DNA from: Zoogloeaceae bacterium G21618-S1
Lineage (GTDB): Bacteria; Pseudomonadota; Gammaproteobacteria; Burkholderiales; Rhodocyclaceae
Length of the DNA stretch: 64,000 nt
NCBI GenBank assembly: GCA_027214125.1
Contig: JAPWHF010000004.1
Coordinates: 285,777 to 349,776 of the forward strand
Direction of reading: 5' to 3'
A program made the translations under genes and the position numbers. Positions 11,789-23,487 of the stretch are shown in pieces; position 1 is the stretch's first letter, and every line of letters starts with the position of its first letter. The notes below the pieces were generated by a model. It made no database searches, was not told the origin of the DNA, and was given only the letters and a program-made list of their open reading frames with translations.

Positions 11789-11833
11789 TCGACAAGGTCT
11801 GAACTTCTCTCCATAATTATGGATTATTAATCC
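11789..11833 (+). promoter_or_regulatory. Promoter of the VOC gene with overlapping palindromic operator
   Basis: A -35-like TCGACA (11789-11794) and -10-like CATAAT (11812-11817) are 17 bases apart. A perfect 14-bp palindrome TCCATAATTATGGA (11810-11823) covers the -10, and a second inverted repeat GGATTA-T-TAATCC (11821-11833) overlaps its end. The same core palindrome lies in the mcm promoter at 22632-22645. The position suggests repressor binding (inference). Confidence 0.6.
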
Positions 11834-11845
11834 ACGGAGGCTCTC

Positions 11846-12322
11846 ATGACGCAACGCCCGTTCAAGGTTCTCGGCATCCAGCAAATCGCCATCGGCGGCC
11901 CGAGCAAAGACCGCCTGAAAACCTTGTGGGTCGACATGCTCGGCCTCGAAGTCACCGGCAATTTCGTCTCCGAGCGCGAGAATGTGGACGAAGACATCTG
12001 CGCCATCGGCAGCGGCCCCTTCAAGGTCGAAGTCGACCTCATGCAGCCGCTCGACGCCGACAAGAAGCCGGCGGTGCACGCCACCCCGCTCAATCACATC
12101 GGTCTGTGGATCGACGACCTGCCCACCGCCGTCGAGTGGCTCTCATCCCAGGGCGTGCGCTTTGCGCCGGGTGGCATCCGCAAGGGCGCGGCGGGCTTCG
12201 ACATCACCTTCATGCACCCCAAGGCCAACGACGAATTCCCCATCGCCGGCGAAGGCGTGCTGATCGAACTGGTGCAGGCGCCGCCCGAAGTGGTGGCGGC
12301 CTTCGCCAGGCTGGCGGGCTGA
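11846..12322 (+). CDS. VOC-family protein, candidate methylmalonyl-CoA epimerase
   Basis: The product has 158 residues and a strong CGGAGG ribosome site six bases before ATG 11846. Two beta-alpha-beta-beta-beta modules of the vicinal-oxygen-chelate fold are visible. The second module has [17 protein letters not shown] and GVRF, and it ends FMHPKA...[10 protein letters not shown], the pattern typical of methylmalonyl-CoA epimerase. Metal ligands in that enzyme are His, Gln, His and Glu. Here H84 and E141 are present but the first ligand position reads IQQIAI, giving Gln13. This may be a variant epimerase or a related glyoxalase-type isomerase. Sharing a palindromic operator with the mcm operon favours a propionyl-CoA role (inference). 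Confidence 0.8.
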
Positions 12323-15600: not shown

Positions 15601-17586
15601 TTATTCGAACTCGATGATGATTTCGTCCACCGTCAGGCTGGCGCCCGGATGGGCCACCACCTTCTTCACCACGCAATCCTGTTCGGCCTTGAGAACGTTC
15701 TCCATCTTCATGGCTTCGATCACCGCGAGTTTTTCACCGGCCTTGACGTCCTGACCGGGTTGAACCGCGACTTCACGCAACAGGCCCGGCATGGGCGACA
15801 GCAGGTACTTCGACAGATCGGGAGGCAGCTTCTCGGGCATGCGCTCGAGCAGACTGGCTGCCACGCCGGTCATCACCATCGGCTGCACCTGCAGGCCAAA
15901 ATGACTGATGTGGTAGCACAAACCACGCCGTTCGATCTGCAGGCACACCGGAACGCCATTGACCGTGCCCTTGAACAGCAGCTCACGGAAAGTCCAATCG
16001 GAAACGATGTCGTAGGTCTTGTCGTCCTGACGAACCCGCAGACCTCCGTCGAGGCCTTCGACCGACACCGGATAGCGCGCGCCGGACATCAGCACCACCA
16101 GATCCTTCTTGACGTTGCGGCCGTGCCCTGCCATCTGCCCGGAGATCTGCACCGCACGCTCGATATAGCGCATGCGGGCAAAGGTGGCCACCGCCGCCAG
16201 CAGGCTCGGATCGTCGTGCGGCACCATCGACGCATCGAAACCTTGCGGATACTCCTCGGCGATAAAGCCGGTGTTGAAGTTGCCCGAGCAGAAGCGCGGA
16301 TGCTGCAGCAGCGCGGCCTGGAACGGAATGTTCGAACTGATGCCGCGAATCACGAACTCGTTGAGCGCATCGCGCATCTTCTGGATCGCGTCATTGCGGT
16401 CTTTGCCATGCACGATCAGCTTGGCAATCATCGAATCGTAGAACATCGAGATTTCGCCGCCGTCGTACACCCCGGTGTCGACGCGCACGCCCGCCTGCTC
16501 GGCCGGCGGGTCAAAGCGCACAAGACGGCCGGTCGAAGGCAGGAAGCCGCGGAACGGGTCTTCGGCGTTGATCCGGCACTCCATCGACCACCCGTCGAGC
16601 TTCACGTCGGCCTGGCTGAACGACAATTTCTCGCCGTAAGCGACACGAATCATCTGCTCGACCAGATCGACCCCGGTGATGTACTCGGTCACCGGGTGCT
16701 CGACCTGAAGACGGGTGTTCATCTCGAGGAAGTAGAAACTCTTGTCGGCGCCGACCACAAACTCGACCGTACCGGCCGACTCATAATTCACCGCACGCGC
16801 CAGCGCCACGGCCTGCTCGCCCATGGCCTTGCGCATGGCCGCATCGACGAAAGGCGACGGCGCCTCTTCGATGACCTTCTGGTGACGGCGCTGGATCGAG
16901 CAGTCGCGCTCGTTCAGGTACACATAGTTGCCATGCGAGTCGCCCAGCAACTGGATCTCGATGTGACGCGGCTCAAGCACGTATTTTTCGATGAACACAC
17001 GGTCATCGCCAAAGGCGTTCTTGGCTTCGCTCACGCAGGACGAGAAACCTTCGTGCGCTTCCTTGTCATTGAAAGCCACGCGCAAGCCCTTGCCGCCACC
17101 GCCGGCCGAGGCCTTGATCATCACCGGGTAGCCGATATCCTGGGCGATCTTGACCGCTTCATCCGGGCCGGCAATAGCGTCGTTGTAGCCGGGAATGGTG
17201 TTGACCTTGGCTTCGAGCGCCAGCTTCTTGGACTCGATCTTGTCGCCCATTTTGGCGATCGAGTAGTGCTTGGGCCCAATGAACTTGATCCCCATCTCTT
17301 CGAGACGACGCGCGAACTCGGCGTTCTCGGACAGGAAACCATAGCCCGGATGCACCGCTTCGGCGCCGGTCTGCTGGCAGGCCGCGATGATCTTGTCGGC
17401 CACCAGGTAGGACTGCGACGATGCGGCCGGCCCGATGCACACAGCTTCGTCGGCCAGCGCAACGAACAGCGCGCGCTTGTCGGCTTCGGAATACACCGCG
17501 ACCGTCTTGATGCCCATCTTGTGGGCCGTTTTGATCACGCGGCAGGCAATTTCACCGCGGTTCGCGATCAGAATCTTCTTGAACAT
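15601..17586 (-). CDS. pccA: Propionyl-CoA carboxylase biotin-carrying alpha subunit
   Basis: The product has 661 residues. Biotin carboxylase domains come first, starting MFKKILIANRGEIACRVI and including the ATP-grasp glycine loop KASAGGGGKGLR and EMNTRLQVEHPVTE. A linker of the PccA BT type follows, then a biotinyl domain whose EAMKME motif places biotin on K627. With PccB it carboxylates propionyl-CoA to (S)-methylmalonyl-CoA. It is the last gene of the mcm-meaB-pccB-pccA operon, 19 bases after pccB, and ends before a strong terminator. The operon context supports propionyl-CoA rather than acetyl- or methylcrotonyl-CoA as substrate. Confidence 0.96.
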   Translation of the reverse strand: MFKKILIANRGEIACRVIKTAHKMGIKTVAVYSEADKRALFVALADEAVCIGPAASSQSYLVADKIIAACQQTGAEAVHPGYGFLSENAEFARRLEEMGIKFIGPKHYSIAKMGDKIESKKLALEAKVNTIPGYNDAIAGPDEAVKIAQDIGYPVMIKASAGGGGKGLRVAFNDKEAHEGFSSCVSEAKNAFGDDRVFIEKYVLEPRHIEIQLLGDSHGNYVYLNERDCSIQRRHQKVIEEAPSPFVDAAMRKAMGEQAVALARAVNYESAGTVEFVVGADKSFYFLEMNTRLQVEHPVTEYITGVDLVEQMIRVAYGEKLSFSQADVKLDGWSMECRINAEDPFRGFLPSTGRLVRFDPPAEQAGVRVDTGVYDGGEISMFYDSMIAKLIVHGKDRNDAIQKMRDALNEFVIRGISSNIPFQAALLQHPRFCSGNFNTGFIAEEYPQGFDASMVPHDDPSLLAAVATFARMRYIERAVQISGQMAGHGRNVKKDLVVLMSGARYPVSVEGLDGGLRVRQDDKTYDIVSDWTFRELLFKGTVNGVPVCLQIERRGLCYHISHFGLQVQPMVMTGVAASLLERMPEKLPPDLSKYLLSPMPGLLREVAVQPGQDVKAGEKLAVIEAMKMENVLKAEQDCVVKKVVAHPGASLTVDEIIIEFE

Positions 17587-17605: not shown

Positions 17606-19138
<1,533 letters not shown>

Positions 19139-19202: not shown

Positions 19203-20207
19203 CTAGTGTTCACTCAAATGGTTCAGCAAGCTGTGGGCTGCGGCAGCCGGGGTGGTTTCGCCCCGCGCCACAGCCGCCTGCAAGGCCGCCAGCTCCGCCC
19301 TGACCTGGGGGTGCTCGCGAAAGCGCTGGCGCAAGCCGCTGTCGATCAACTCCCACATCCAGGCCTGCGCCTGCGACCGGCGCTTTTCATCAAACTCGCC
19401 ACTGCCGCGCATGGTGTCGCGATAGCGCTGAATCTCGTCCCAGAACTGCGCGACGCCGTCCTTCTTCAAAGCCGACAACGTGAGCACCGGCGGCACCCAG
19501 TTGGGCGAGCTATGGCGCAGCATACCCAACGCCGTCTTGATCTGACTCTTCGCCACCGCGGCCTGCCGCGGATCGATATCGGCCTTGTTGATCACGATCA
19601 GGTCGGCCAGCTCCATGATTCCCTTCTTGATCGCCTGCAAATCGTCGCCGGCATTGGGCAGCTGCAGCAGGCAGAAAATATCGGTCATGCCGGCCACAGC
19701 GGTCTCGCTCTGGCCCACGCCAACGGTCTCGACAATCACCACATCAAAACCTGCCGCCTCGCACACCAGCAGCGTCTCGCGCGTCTTGCCGGCCACGCCG
19801 CCCAGGCTGCCCGCCGACGGGCTGGGCCGAATGAAAGCCTCGGTGCGTTGCGACAGCAATTCCATGCGCGTCTTGTCGCCGAGGATGCTGCCCCCGGTCA
19901 CCGATGAGGACGGGTCCACCGCCAGCACCGCGACCTTCAAGCCTTTCTCGATCAGCAACAGGCCAAGCGCTTCGATAAAGGTGGACTTGCCCACCCCCGG
20001 CACGCCGGAAATACCCACCCGCATGGCACCGCCGGTGTGGGGCAGCAAGGCTTCGAGCACCCGGCGCGCACGCGCTCGATGATCGGGCCGCTGGGACTCG
20101 ATCAGTGTGATGGTCTTGGCCAGTGGGCGCAGTTGTCGCCCGACCACACCATCGACCAGGTGCTGGTCAGAGATGTCGAGATCGGTAGGCATCTGGGGCA
20201 TATTCAT
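19203..20207 (-). CDS. meaB: Methylmalonyl-CoA mutase-associated GTPase (ArgK/MeaB)
   Basis: The product has 334 residues. The P-loop GVPGVGKST lies at residues 68-76, followed by LAVDPSSSVTGGSILGDKTRM, the MeaB-specific switch region, and later ETVGVGQSE and NKAD for guanine recognition. In the family it gates adenosylcobalamin loading and protects methylmalonyl-CoA mutase from inactivation. It is 55 bases downstream of mcm and on the same strand, exactly the partner it is expected to serve. IcmF carries its own fused version of this domain. Confidence 0.96.
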   Translation of the reverse strand: MNMPQMPTDLDISDQHLVDGVVGRQLRPLAKTITLIESQRPDHRARARRVLEALLPHTGGAMRVGISGVPGVGKSTFIEALGLLLIEKGLKVAVLAVDPSSSVTGGSILGDKTRMELLSQRTEAFIRPSPSAGSLGGVAGKTRETLLVCEAAGFDVVIVETVGVGQSETAVAGMTDIFCLLQLPNAGDDLQAIKKGIMELADLIVINKADIDPRQAAVAKSQIKTALGMLRHSSPNWVPPVLTLSALKKDGVAQFWDEIQRYRDTMRGSGEFDEKRRSQAQAWMWELIDSGLRQRFREHPQVRAELAALQAAVARGETTPAAAAHSLLNHLSEH

Positions 20208-20262: not shown

Positions 20263-22419
20263 TCAACCGGCGCGGGCCTTGCGGACCTGGGCCAGCACTT
20301 CGCGGGCGGCAGTCTGGATAGGCGTACCCGGACCAAAAATACCTTTCGCACCCGCACTGCGCAACGCGTCGTAGTCCTGCGCGGGAATCACACCGCCCAC
20401 AAACACGATGATGTCGTCGGCGCCCTGCGCCTTGAGATGTTTGATGATCTCGGGCACCAGCGTCTTGTGGCCTGCCGCCAGGCTGGAGCAGCCCACCGCG
20501 TGCACATCGTTCTCGACGGCGTGGCGTGCGGCCTCTTCCGGCGTCTGAAACAGCGGACCGATGTCGATATCAAAGCCGAGGTCGGCAAAGGCCGAGGCCA
20601 CCACCTTGGCGCCCCGGTCATGACCATCCTGACCGAGCTTGGCAATCATGATGCGCGGACGGCGCCCTTCTTCGGCCACAAAGGCTTCGATGTCGGCCTT
20701 CAAGGCTTTCCAGTCATCCTGTTCTTCAACCACGGCGCCATACACTCCTGAAACAACCTGCGGATTCGCGCGGAAGCGCCCCCACTCGGCTTCCAGCGCG
20801 TCGGACACTTCACCCACCGTGGCGCGCAGGCGCATGGCCTTGACGGCCAGATCGAGCAGGTTGCCTTCGCCGGTTTTGGCGCAGGCCGTCAGCGCGGCGA
20901 GCGCCGCATCGACGGCGGCCTGGTCACGCGTGGCGCGGATTGCCTGAAGACGCGCCACTTGCGAGTCGCGCACCGCATGGTTGTCGATGTCGAGAATCTC
21001 GATCGGGTCTTCCTTGGCCAGCTTGTACTTGTTGACGCCGACGATCACATCCTTGCCCGAGTCGATGCGCGCCTGCTTCTCGGCGGCACACTCCTCGATC
21101 TTCATCTTCGCCCAGCCGGCCTCGACCGCCTTGGTCATGCCGCCCATGGCTTCGATCTCTTCGATGATCTCCCAGGCCTTGTCGGCCATTTCCTGGGTGA
21201 GCGATTCCATCATGTAGGAGCCGGCCCACGGATCGACCACGCTGGTGATGTGCGTCTCTTCCTGAATCAGAATCTGCGTATTGCGGGCGATGCGCGACGA
21301 GAACTCGGTCGGCAGCGCAATGGCTTCGTCCAGCGCATTGGTGTGCAGCGACTGCGTGCCGCCAAACACCGCGGCCATCGCCTCGATGGTGGTGCGCACC
21401 ACGTTGTTGTACGGGTCTTGCTCGGTCAGCGACCAGCCGGATGTCTGGCTGTGCGTGCGCAGCATCAGCGACTTTTCGCTCTTCGGGTTGAACTGCTTCA
21501 TGATCCGCCACCACAGCAGACGCGCGGCGCGCATCTTGGCGATCTCAAGATAGAAGTTCATGCCCACCGCCCAGAAGAAGGACAGGCGGCCGGCGAACTT
21601 GTCGACGTCCATGCCGCTGGCGATGCCGGTGCGCACATACTCCAGACCGTCGGCCAGCGTGAAGGCCAGCTCGATGGCCTGGTTCGCGCCGGCTTCCTGG
21701 ATGTGATAGCCGGAGATCGAGATCGAATTGAACTTCGGCATGTGCTGCGCGGTGTAGCCGAAGATGTCGGCGATGATCTTCATCGACGGCGTGGGCGGAT
21801 AGATATAGGTGTTCCGCACCATGAATTCTTTGAGGATGTCGTTCTGGATCGTGCCCGACAGCTTGTCCTGGCTCACGCCCTGCTCTTCGGCGGCCACGAT
21901 GTAGCCGGCCAGAATCGGCAGCACGGCGCCGTTCATGGTCATTGACACCGAGACCTTGTCGAGCGGGATGCTGTCAAAGAGGATCTTCATGTCTTCGACC
22001 GAATCGATCGCCACGCCGGCCTTGCCGACGTCGCCGGTCACGCGCGGGTTGTCCGAATCGTAGCCACGGTGCGTGGCCAGATCGAAAGCCACCGACACGC
22101 CCTGACCACCGGCGGCCAGCGCCTTGCGGTAGAAAGCGTTCGAGGCCTCGGCCGTCGAAAAGCCGGCGTACTGACGAATGGTCCACGGGCGCCCGGCGTA
22201 CATGGTGGCCTGCGGGCCGCGCACATAGGGCGCAAAGCCCGGCAAGGTGTTGGCGTATTCGAGCCCCGCCACATCCTCGGCGGTATACAAGGGCTTCACG
22301 ACAATGCCTTCCGGCGTCGTCCAGTTCAGCGACGCAGGATCATTGCCCGGGGCGGTCTTGGCCGCGGCTTTGTACCAATCGTCCAGTGAGTACTGGGGAG
22401 TCTCAGGCGCCTTTGACAT
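20263..22419 (-). CDS. mcm: Methylmalonyl-CoA mutase, single-chain type
   Basis: The product is 718 residues from ATG 22419, preceded by AGAGAGG. The longer frame to 22596 runs through a GC-rich leader and is not supported. The mutase barrel contains [18 protein letters not shown], with Tyr in the substrate position typical of methylmalonyl-CoA, and [14 protein letters not shown] with the active-site His. The C-terminal cobalamin domain has DGHDRG with the cobalt-ligating H600. It rearranges (R)-methylmalonyl-CoA to succinyl-CoA. It is first in the mcm-meaB-pccB-pccA operon and divergent from a GntR/FCD regulator. Confidence 0.97.
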
Positions 22420-22620: not shown

Positions 22621-22650
22621 ATAATACTTTATCCATAATTATGAATGCAA
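22621..22650 (-). promoter_or_regulatory. Predicted mcm operon promoter with operator in the spacer
   Basis: On the minus strand, TTGCAT (22645-22650) and TATTAT (22621-22626) are separated by 18 bases. The spacer holds CATAATTATG (22634-22643), within TCCATAATTATGAA. This is nearly identical to the perfect palindrome over the VOC promoter at 11810-11823. A bound regulator would block RNA polymerase (inference). Confidence 0.6.
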
Positions 22651-22741: not shown

Positions 22742-22751
22742 TTGTATACAA
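22742..22751. promoter_or_regulatory. TTGTATACAA palindrome upstream of the GntR gene
   Basis: A perfect 10-bp palindrome lies 65 bases before the start of the GntR/FCD regulator gene. AT-centred palindromes of this kind are typical operators for GntR/FadR-type proteins, so autoregulation is plausible. The assignment rests on position and symmetry only. Confidence 0.45.
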
Positions 22752-22815: not shown

Positions 22816-23487
22816 ATGAACGCCTCTCGCATTGCGCCCATGGCGCTTTACCAGGAAGTCGCGGAACGCCTGCGTGAGCGGATCTTCGCCCACGAGCTCA
22901 AACCCGGTGCGTGGATCGACGAACAAGCCCTGACCGAGCATTACGGCATCTCCCGCACGCCGCTGCGCGAAGCGCTCAAGGTGCTGGCCTCCGAAGGCCT
23001 GGTCACACTCAAGCCGCGCCGTGGCTGTTACGTGACCGAAATTTCTGAGCGCGATCTGGACGAAATCTTCACCGTCATGGGCCTGCTCGAAGGCCAGTGC
23101 GCGCGCGATGCCACCACCCGCGCCAGCACTGCCGACCTGAAGCAACTGGAAAAAATCCACGCAGACCTGGAAAGCGCCGCCGCAACCGGCAACATCAACG
23201 GCTTCTTCGAAGCCAATCAGGCCTTCCACCAGCAAGTACAGTGCATTGCCGACAACCACTGGCTACAGCACGTAATTGAAGACCTGCGCAAAGTGATCAA
23301 GCTCTCGCGTCACCACTCGCTGTTCAGCGATGGCCGGCTTGAGCAATCGCTGACCGAGCACCGCCTGATTCTCAAAGCCATGTTGGCCCACAGTGCAGAT
23401 GCCGCCGATCTGGCCATGCGCGAACACATCGCCAGCGGTCGCAAGGCGCTGGCGCGCATTGCCGCCGCACGCACCGAGGCCGCCTGA
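22816..23487 (+). CDS. GntR-family regulator, FCD type
   Basis: The product is 223 residues from ATG 22816; a longer frame to 22723 crosses the TTGTATACAA palindrome and is unlikely. The N-terminal winged helix has VAERLRERIFAHELKPGAWIDEQALTEHYGISRTPLREALKVLASEGLV, the GntR signature. The C-terminal FCD domain is all-helical with an acid/His metal or ligand site around HYGI, FHQQVQ and HRLILKAMLAHSADAADLAMREH. It is divergent from the propionyl-CoA operon by 396 bases and is the first candidate for its control, perhaps sensing an organic acid or acyl-CoA. Confidence 0.93.
   Translation: MNASRIAPMALYQEVAERLRERIFAHELKPGAWIDEQALTEHYGISRTPLREALKVLASEGLVTLKPRRGCYVTEISERDLDEIFTVMGLLEGQCARDATTRASTADLKQLEKIHADLESAAATGNINGFFEANQAFHQQVQCIADNHWLQHVIEDLRKVIKLSRHHSLFSDGRLEQSLTEHRLILKAMLAHSADAADLAMREHIASGRKALARIAAARTEAA

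Follow-up and report, generated by a model that had tools for sequence, protein, structure and literature searches.

The same AT-rich palindrome stands upstream of a VOC-family gene and of the operon of methylmalonyl-CoA mutase (mcm), and the question is whether it is an operator, which protein would bind it and which genes it would control. The original prediction held that one regulator governs the propionyl-CoA pathway through these sites, and that the VOC protein is the epimerase of the pathway. When the sequence was re-read, both palindromes (TCCATAATTATGGA and TCCATAATTATGAA) were found at the places claimed for them (Table 1). In the window, by which we mean the whole 64-kb stretch of DNA analysed, there are three matches at three mismatches or fewer, against 0.44 expected from shuffles. 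Throughout the 4,394,465-base genome, no 14-mer other than these two differs from TCCATAATTATGGA by at most one base, where base composition would give 0.094 such sites. Both stand upstream of genes of one pathway.

Table 1. Features of the window, in window coordinates.
Feature	Position	Strand	Remarks
VOC -35 hexamer TCGACA	11789..11794	+	consensus scan
Putative operator palindrome TCCATAATTATGGA	11810..11823	no strand	core CATAATTATG at 11812-11821, overlapping the -10 CATAAT at 11812-11817
Second, overlapping inverted repeat TGGATTA-T-TAATCCA	11820..11834	no strand	TTAATCC half often retained in relatives having the site
VOC-family protein, probable methylmalonyl-CoA epimerase	11846..12322	+	profile, alignment, model, gene order, co-occurrence
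pccA, biotin carboxylase/carrier subunit	15601..17586	-	named from context
pccB, carboxyltransferase subunit	17606..19138	-	named from context
meaB	19203..20207	-	
mcm, methylmalonyl-CoA mutase	20263..22419	-	
mcm promoter/operator block (predicted)	22621..22650	-	-35 TTGCAT at 22650-22645, 18-nt spacer with palindrome, -10 TATTAT at 22626-22621
Putative operator palindrome TCCATAATTATGAA	22632..22645	no strand	core CATAATTATG at 22634-22643
GntR/FCD regulator gene	22816..23487	+	divergent from mcm; best candidate to bind both palindromes

The palindrome upstream of the VOC gene had been said to cover the predicted -10. Our consensus scan agreed, placing CATAAT inside it at a distance of 17 nt from TCGACA. 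For mcm, the palindrome had been placed between the -35 and the -10. The hexamers meant are conserved in relatives, but the scan that detects the VOC promoter returned none for mcm, because TTGCAT agrees with TTGACA at only three of six positions. The 30-bp mcm block, from the -35-like to the -10-like hexamer, is strongly conserved in relatives. Over the stretch from ATAATA to ATGCAA, at least 77 of 86 aligned blocks agree at the majority of positions, and 54, 65, 68 and 69 of the 86 at the loosest; the blocks were picked for a palindrome with at most three mismatches, which makes the palindrome partly selected and leaves the flanks unselected. What is conserved as a unit is thus a predicted promoter whose spacer contains the palindrome.

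Conservation of the motif before orthologous genes was run as a refutation test of the original prediction. We counted the core YATAATTATGRA, at one mismatch or fewer, over 105 regions upstream of mcm or the FCD gene in family genomes (of the 106 genomes with mcm, G014, G091 and G095 were left out for contig edges; G077 and G104, with a partial mcm, were counted). The core was present in 87 of the 88 genomes with the FCD gene within 1.5 kb of mcm, the exception being G076, in which the two lie 1.2 kb apart. It was found in none of the 15 genomes with mcm but without the FCD gene, and in one of the two with the FCD gene elsewhere. The overall mcm tally (88/90) includes G043, which has a weak match 33 nt from mcm and its FCD gene elsewhere. 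Across the FCD/mcm gaps, CATAATTATG is the sole recurring palindromic 10-mer (82/88; the runner-up occurs in 2). Upstream of the VOC gene, the core was detected within 160 nt in 30 of the 109 genomes having this gene, and was absent from the 160 nt examined in the remaining 79; shuffled controls gave 0/109 in 18 of 20 sets and 1/109 in two. The -10 inside these 30 palindromes is mostly TATAAT or CATAAT, often followed by the TTAATCC half, and the site in many relatives is TATAATTATG, which contains a perfect -10. The test did not refute the prediction, although the lack of a VOC site in the 79 genomes counts against it.

The gene divergent from mcm encodes a protein of the GntR family, FCD subgroup (PF00392, 71.3 bits with a threshold of 27; PF07729, 97.7 bits with a threshold of 24.3). 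A strict motif, YCYATAATTATGRA, was scanned in 121 family genomes and gave 101 sites in 80 of them: 77 in the mcm/FCD gap, 10 before the VOC gene and 14 elsewhere. The reversed pattern yielded none throughout, and composition would predict 0.9 to 5.2 sites per 121 genomes (68 to 60% G+C). Strict sites occurred in 80 of the 92 genomes with the FCD gene (12 had none) and in 0 of the 29 without it, counts that do not represent independent trials because the genomes are related. A looser 12-mer was found in 90/92 and 5/29 genomes, respectively; the latter five may be due to chance, since the reversed control matches 8/121 genomes. Sites at other genes also occur in two genomes without the FCD gene: in G035 (82% complete) before VOC and, with one mismatch, before can, and in G058, again with one mismatch, before maeB. 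No good site precedes the FCD gene in G099 and G043, where it lies away from mcm, or in G076. Because the strict motif goes with the FCD gene and CATAATTATG alone recurs in the gaps, the FCD protein is the best candidate binder, on strong but indirect evidence. The palindrome was not accompanied by FadR-type TKGT...ACMA boxes: TKGTN0-4ACMA occurred in 3/88 gaps, as compared with 4/88 in shuffles. Autoregulation of the FCD gene is likely, as it diverges from the same gap as mcm. A GntR-like palindrome, TTGTATACAA, lies at 22742-22751, 64 nt upstream of the start codon of the FCD gene. Autoregulation through it was considered because of this resemblance, and it was rejected as the common operator, being present in one of the 88 gaps, the window's own.

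We compared this locus with 15 named Burkholderiales contigs holding the cluster (Hydrogenophaga, Polaromonas, Variovorax, Rhodoferax, Limnohabitans and others). The FCD gene comes first; divergent from it, mcm, meaB, pccB, pccA and VOC are arranged on one strand in that order. In all 15, which hold the whole cluster, the VOC gene thus comes after pccA on a shared strand, at 60 nt or less in 7, at 300-720 nt in 5 and at about 1.05 kb in the remaining 3, possibly with other genes in between. The FCD/mcm gap holds AATAATTAT in 14 of the 15 (in one as AATAATTAC), the exception being the Piscinibacter contig L090. This core is flanked by TTGCAT-, CTGCAT- or TTGAAT-like and by TAAACT-like hexamers. 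Thirteen aligned Burkholderiales FCD proteins are 49-54% identical to that of the window, with an HTH that hardly varies and a nearly constant stretch, GISRTPLREALKVLA. Since the order, the gap core and the FCD protein match, the FCD/mcm-pcc arrangement is common to the family and Burkholderiales. In part of the family, the standalone VOC gene has its own putative copy of the site.

The profile matches for the pccA and pccB genes are related carboxylase models. The VOC protein scored 45.5 bits with the epimerase model TIGR03081, far below its curated cut-off of 114.95, and a search of its own genome with this profile returned nothing over the cut-off. The best structure matches of the VOC model (pLDDT 76.6) are epimerases by title, in 12 of the top 13 rows (ranks 1-9 and 11-13). 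They have Z values of 11.8-12.9 and rmsd values of 3.0-4.4 over 121-134 aligned residues; the next enzyme has a Z value of 11.4, a modest gap. Alignment with epimerases, in which we take the metal ligands to be His/Gln/His/Glu with an additional catalytic Glu, matched Gln13, Asp64, His84 and Glu141 with the ligands and Glu49 with the catalytic Glu. These five residues are invariant in 25 homologues. The VOC protein thus shares with the TIGR03081 epimerases, which are its best structural matches, the VOC fold, the pathway context and the Glu/His/Glu positions, but differs from them in its score and in two metal ligands, with Gln13 in place of His and Asp64 in place of Gln.

With the thresholds applied here, 102 genomes have both the VOC and the mcm gene; 7 have VOC only (including G077 and G104, each with part of mcm), 4 have mcm only and 8 have neither. 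Thirty genomes of our own choice (21 with both genes, 4 with mcm but no VOC gene, 5 with neither) were searched with TIGR03081. A classical epimerase over the cut-off was found in two, G052 and G105, which belong to one genus and have mcm without the VOC gene (L488, L489); none was found in the 21 genomes with both. The same search detected none in G012 and G068, which also have mcm without the VOC gene; as both assemblies are fragmented, this absence may reflect an assembly gap. G052 also carries a second mutase, 64% identical. The Burkholderiales gene order, the fold, and the fact that classical epimerases turned up solely in searched genomes without the VOC gene favor the assignment made in the original prediction, and the VOC protein is probably the epimerase of the pathway.

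The 14 strict sites at neither mcm nor VOC, of which 0.9 to 5.2 could be chance by composition, precede or adjoin can (3), maeB (2), sucC (2), a phaB-like gene (2), bioB (1) and aceE/folD (1), leaving three unexplained: one beside a paaK gene in G020, one close to the end of a contig in G016, and one in G089. Family models scored above their cut-offs for bioB, carbonate dehydratase, the succinyl-CoA ligase beta subunit and FolD. The malic enzyme model gave 1036.6 with a cut-off of 1178 for a protein truncated where its stretch ends, and the phaB-like protein matches acetoacetyl-CoA reductase and ketoacyl reductase models. The strict motif lies 129 nt upstream of sucC in a congeneric pair of genomes (L281, L282, 2001-2014) and, likewise in a congeneric pair, about 30 nt upstream of the acetoacetyl-CoA reductase-like gene (L285, L286, 2001-2014). 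In G099, where the FCD gene is not next to mcm and mcm has no site, it stands between folD and a gene that we took by eye to be aceE (L292, 2001-2014). The sucC, phaB-like and aceE/folD sites, each in one genus, are leads.

The core, at one mismatch or fewer, was found upstream of bioB in 11/30, can in 12/30 and maeB in 8/30 loci, with a mean of 0.05/30 each in mononucleotide shuffles. The loci were the best 30 of the 111 (bioB), 102 (can) and 113 (maeB) genomes with a match, hence those most closely related to each query, and the can and maeB queries were taken from genomes picked for having the site, so these shares are not family-wide rates. Among the genomes without the FCD gene in these sets, the core was present in 1/7 for can (G035), 1/2 for maeB (G058) and 0/1 for bioB. 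Several relatives' bioB, can and maeB sites resemble ATAATTATGAATTAT, with arms ATAATT/AATTAT around ATG, and the true operator unit may therefore exceed the 14-mer. In the genome of the window itself, the third-best site is TCCATAATTTTGAA, two mismatches from the 14-mer and 21 nt before bioB (G000:C22:270281-270294; L297, 2001-2014), and it is retained in both other members of the genus that were sampled. One-mismatch 12-mers occur at five places in this genome and at four in the reversed control, so that the case for the bioB site is made by its position and its relatives; at the other four places (L307, L308, L311, L312) we recognised no pathway link. The carbonic anhydrase gene (C55:347876) and the maeB genes on C44 of this genome were rejected as targets, having no 12-mer within one mismatch nearby. 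Accordingly, mcm and VOC would be the targets in this species, together with bioB at lower confidence. Propionyl-CoA carboxylase depends on biotin and bicarbonate, and C4 acids reach pyruvate through malic enzyme; by this known biochemistry, bioB, can and maeB form a coherent set with mcm-pcc.

Taken together, these data make it probable that the palindromes are operators of one dedicated factor, most likely the FCD protein, which would repress and be released by an inducer, and that the VOC protein is the epimerase. One regulator probably runs the pathway because the same site precedes the genes leading from propionyl-CoA to succinyl-CoA, and the prediction to this effect is supported by site conservation, target genes and FCD co-occurrence. 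From the sequences we infer binding by the FCD protein, repression, an effector and epimerase activity. Bound to CATAATTATG, the FCD protein would fill the mcm promoter spacer and cover the VOC -10, excluding RNA polymerase; this placement is what suggests repression. An intermediate accumulating as propionyl-CoA forms would release the regulator, propionyl-CoA or methylmalonyl-CoA being our guess. The VOC protein would act as the pathway epimerase, encoded behind pccA in Burkholderiales and apart in the family, with an operator of its own in some genera.

Other readings were weighed against this one. The regulator might activate, or both activate and repress, by remodeling a promoter with a poor -35 from within the 18-nt mcm spacer. 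The weak TTGCAT and the conservation of the -35 to -10 block as a whole would suit such a mechanism, which we regard as rather unlikely given that the VOC site covers the -10 itself, a position normally blocking polymerase. Slightly less likely still, the operator and the regulon are real but the binder is another factor encoded elsewhere, and the FCD protein regulates something else or itself. Another protein could bind the site because the GT...AC signature is lacking and the FCD HTH looks ordinary; the motif is without the usual GntR GT/AC pairs, as described in an excerpt of PMC4494728, and the GntR-like TTGTATACAA precedes the FCD gene. This palindrome, however, is found in just one FCD/mcm gap, and across the 121 genomes the strict motif follows the presence of the FCD gene. 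Moreover, BioR, a GntR protein, reportedly binds the AT-rich TTATMKATAA without GT/AC pairs (excerpt of PMC4494728).

The VOC gene could also be under the same regulator and encode a different VOC enzyme near the pathway, as its low TIGR03081 score and the Gln13 and Asp64 substitutions would allow. We give this a small probability, in view of the position behind pccA in every Burkholderiales contig, the epimerase titles among the structure matches, the retained Glu49, His84 and Glu141, and the lack of a classical epimerase over the cut-off in the mcm- and VOC-bearing genomes tested. Chance AT-rich palindromes, or a plain core promoter without a regulator, are a most improbable explanation. TATAAT-like strings do arise in promoters, and TATAATTATG holds a perfect -10; nevertheless, 87 of the 101 strict sites fall at two loci, the reversed pattern gave none, and the mcm palindrome lies between the promoter hexamers, not on them. 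A chance origin of the mcm and VOC sites was rejected on the window, genome and family counts compared with expectation.

The data thus support the palindromes as a real, conserved operator and a regulon of a known general kind, with the FCD protein as the favored binder. PccR, of the ScfR family, is likewise linked to the methylmalonyl-CoA pathway, in Rhodobacter and Paracoccus. It is a reported activator, whereas the local regulator is GntR/FCD by its domains, hence not of the ScfR family, and probably a repressor; the two are set apart by family. Regulators of the FadR/PdhR/LldR type share the winged HTH with FCD, the divergent gene and the palindrome in the target promoter, but the site here lacks TKGT/ACMA boxes. 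The GT...AC signature, with the consensus TKGT...ACMA, is typical of most GntR/FadR-type operators according to the excerpt of PMC4494728. BioR of Alphaproteobacteria is similar in its GntR family, its AT-rich palindrome without GT/AC and its biotin target (excerpts of PMC4494728 and PMC5343134). Compared by description only, it differs in its site, since the conserved core here is CATAATTATG and not TTATMKATAA, and in its targets, the main one here being mcm-pcc, with bioB in a subset. Among the literature matches listed, no title dealt with an operator of these motif letters, and none described such a regulon or epimerase, although an earlier prediction is possible, for example in RegPrecise; the excerpt of PMC6449761 mentions neither propionate nor methylmalonyl.

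In its widest form, the finding would be that one FCD regulator, shared by Rhodocyclaceae and Burkholderiales and using a GntR-atypical operator, coordinates the carboxylase/mutase operon, a Gln/Asp/His/Glu subclass of epimerase and, in some genera, biotin synthase, carbonic anhydrase and malic enzyme; we lean slightly towards this view. It predicts a propionate-use regulon and its regulator in a family with denitrifiers, aromatic degraders and wastewater bacteria among its members, and it names a candidate epimerase in bacteria where the standard model detects none. It would tie the supply of biotin and bicarbonate to the biotin carboxylase that requires them. Betaproteobacterial BirA reportedly has no DNA-binding domain (excerpt of PMC5343134), and the genera with a bioB site offer a direct test of biotin control without a DNA-binding BirA. 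If the proposal is true, biotin synthesis in such bacteria would be tied to the propionyl-CoA load and not to biotin itself.
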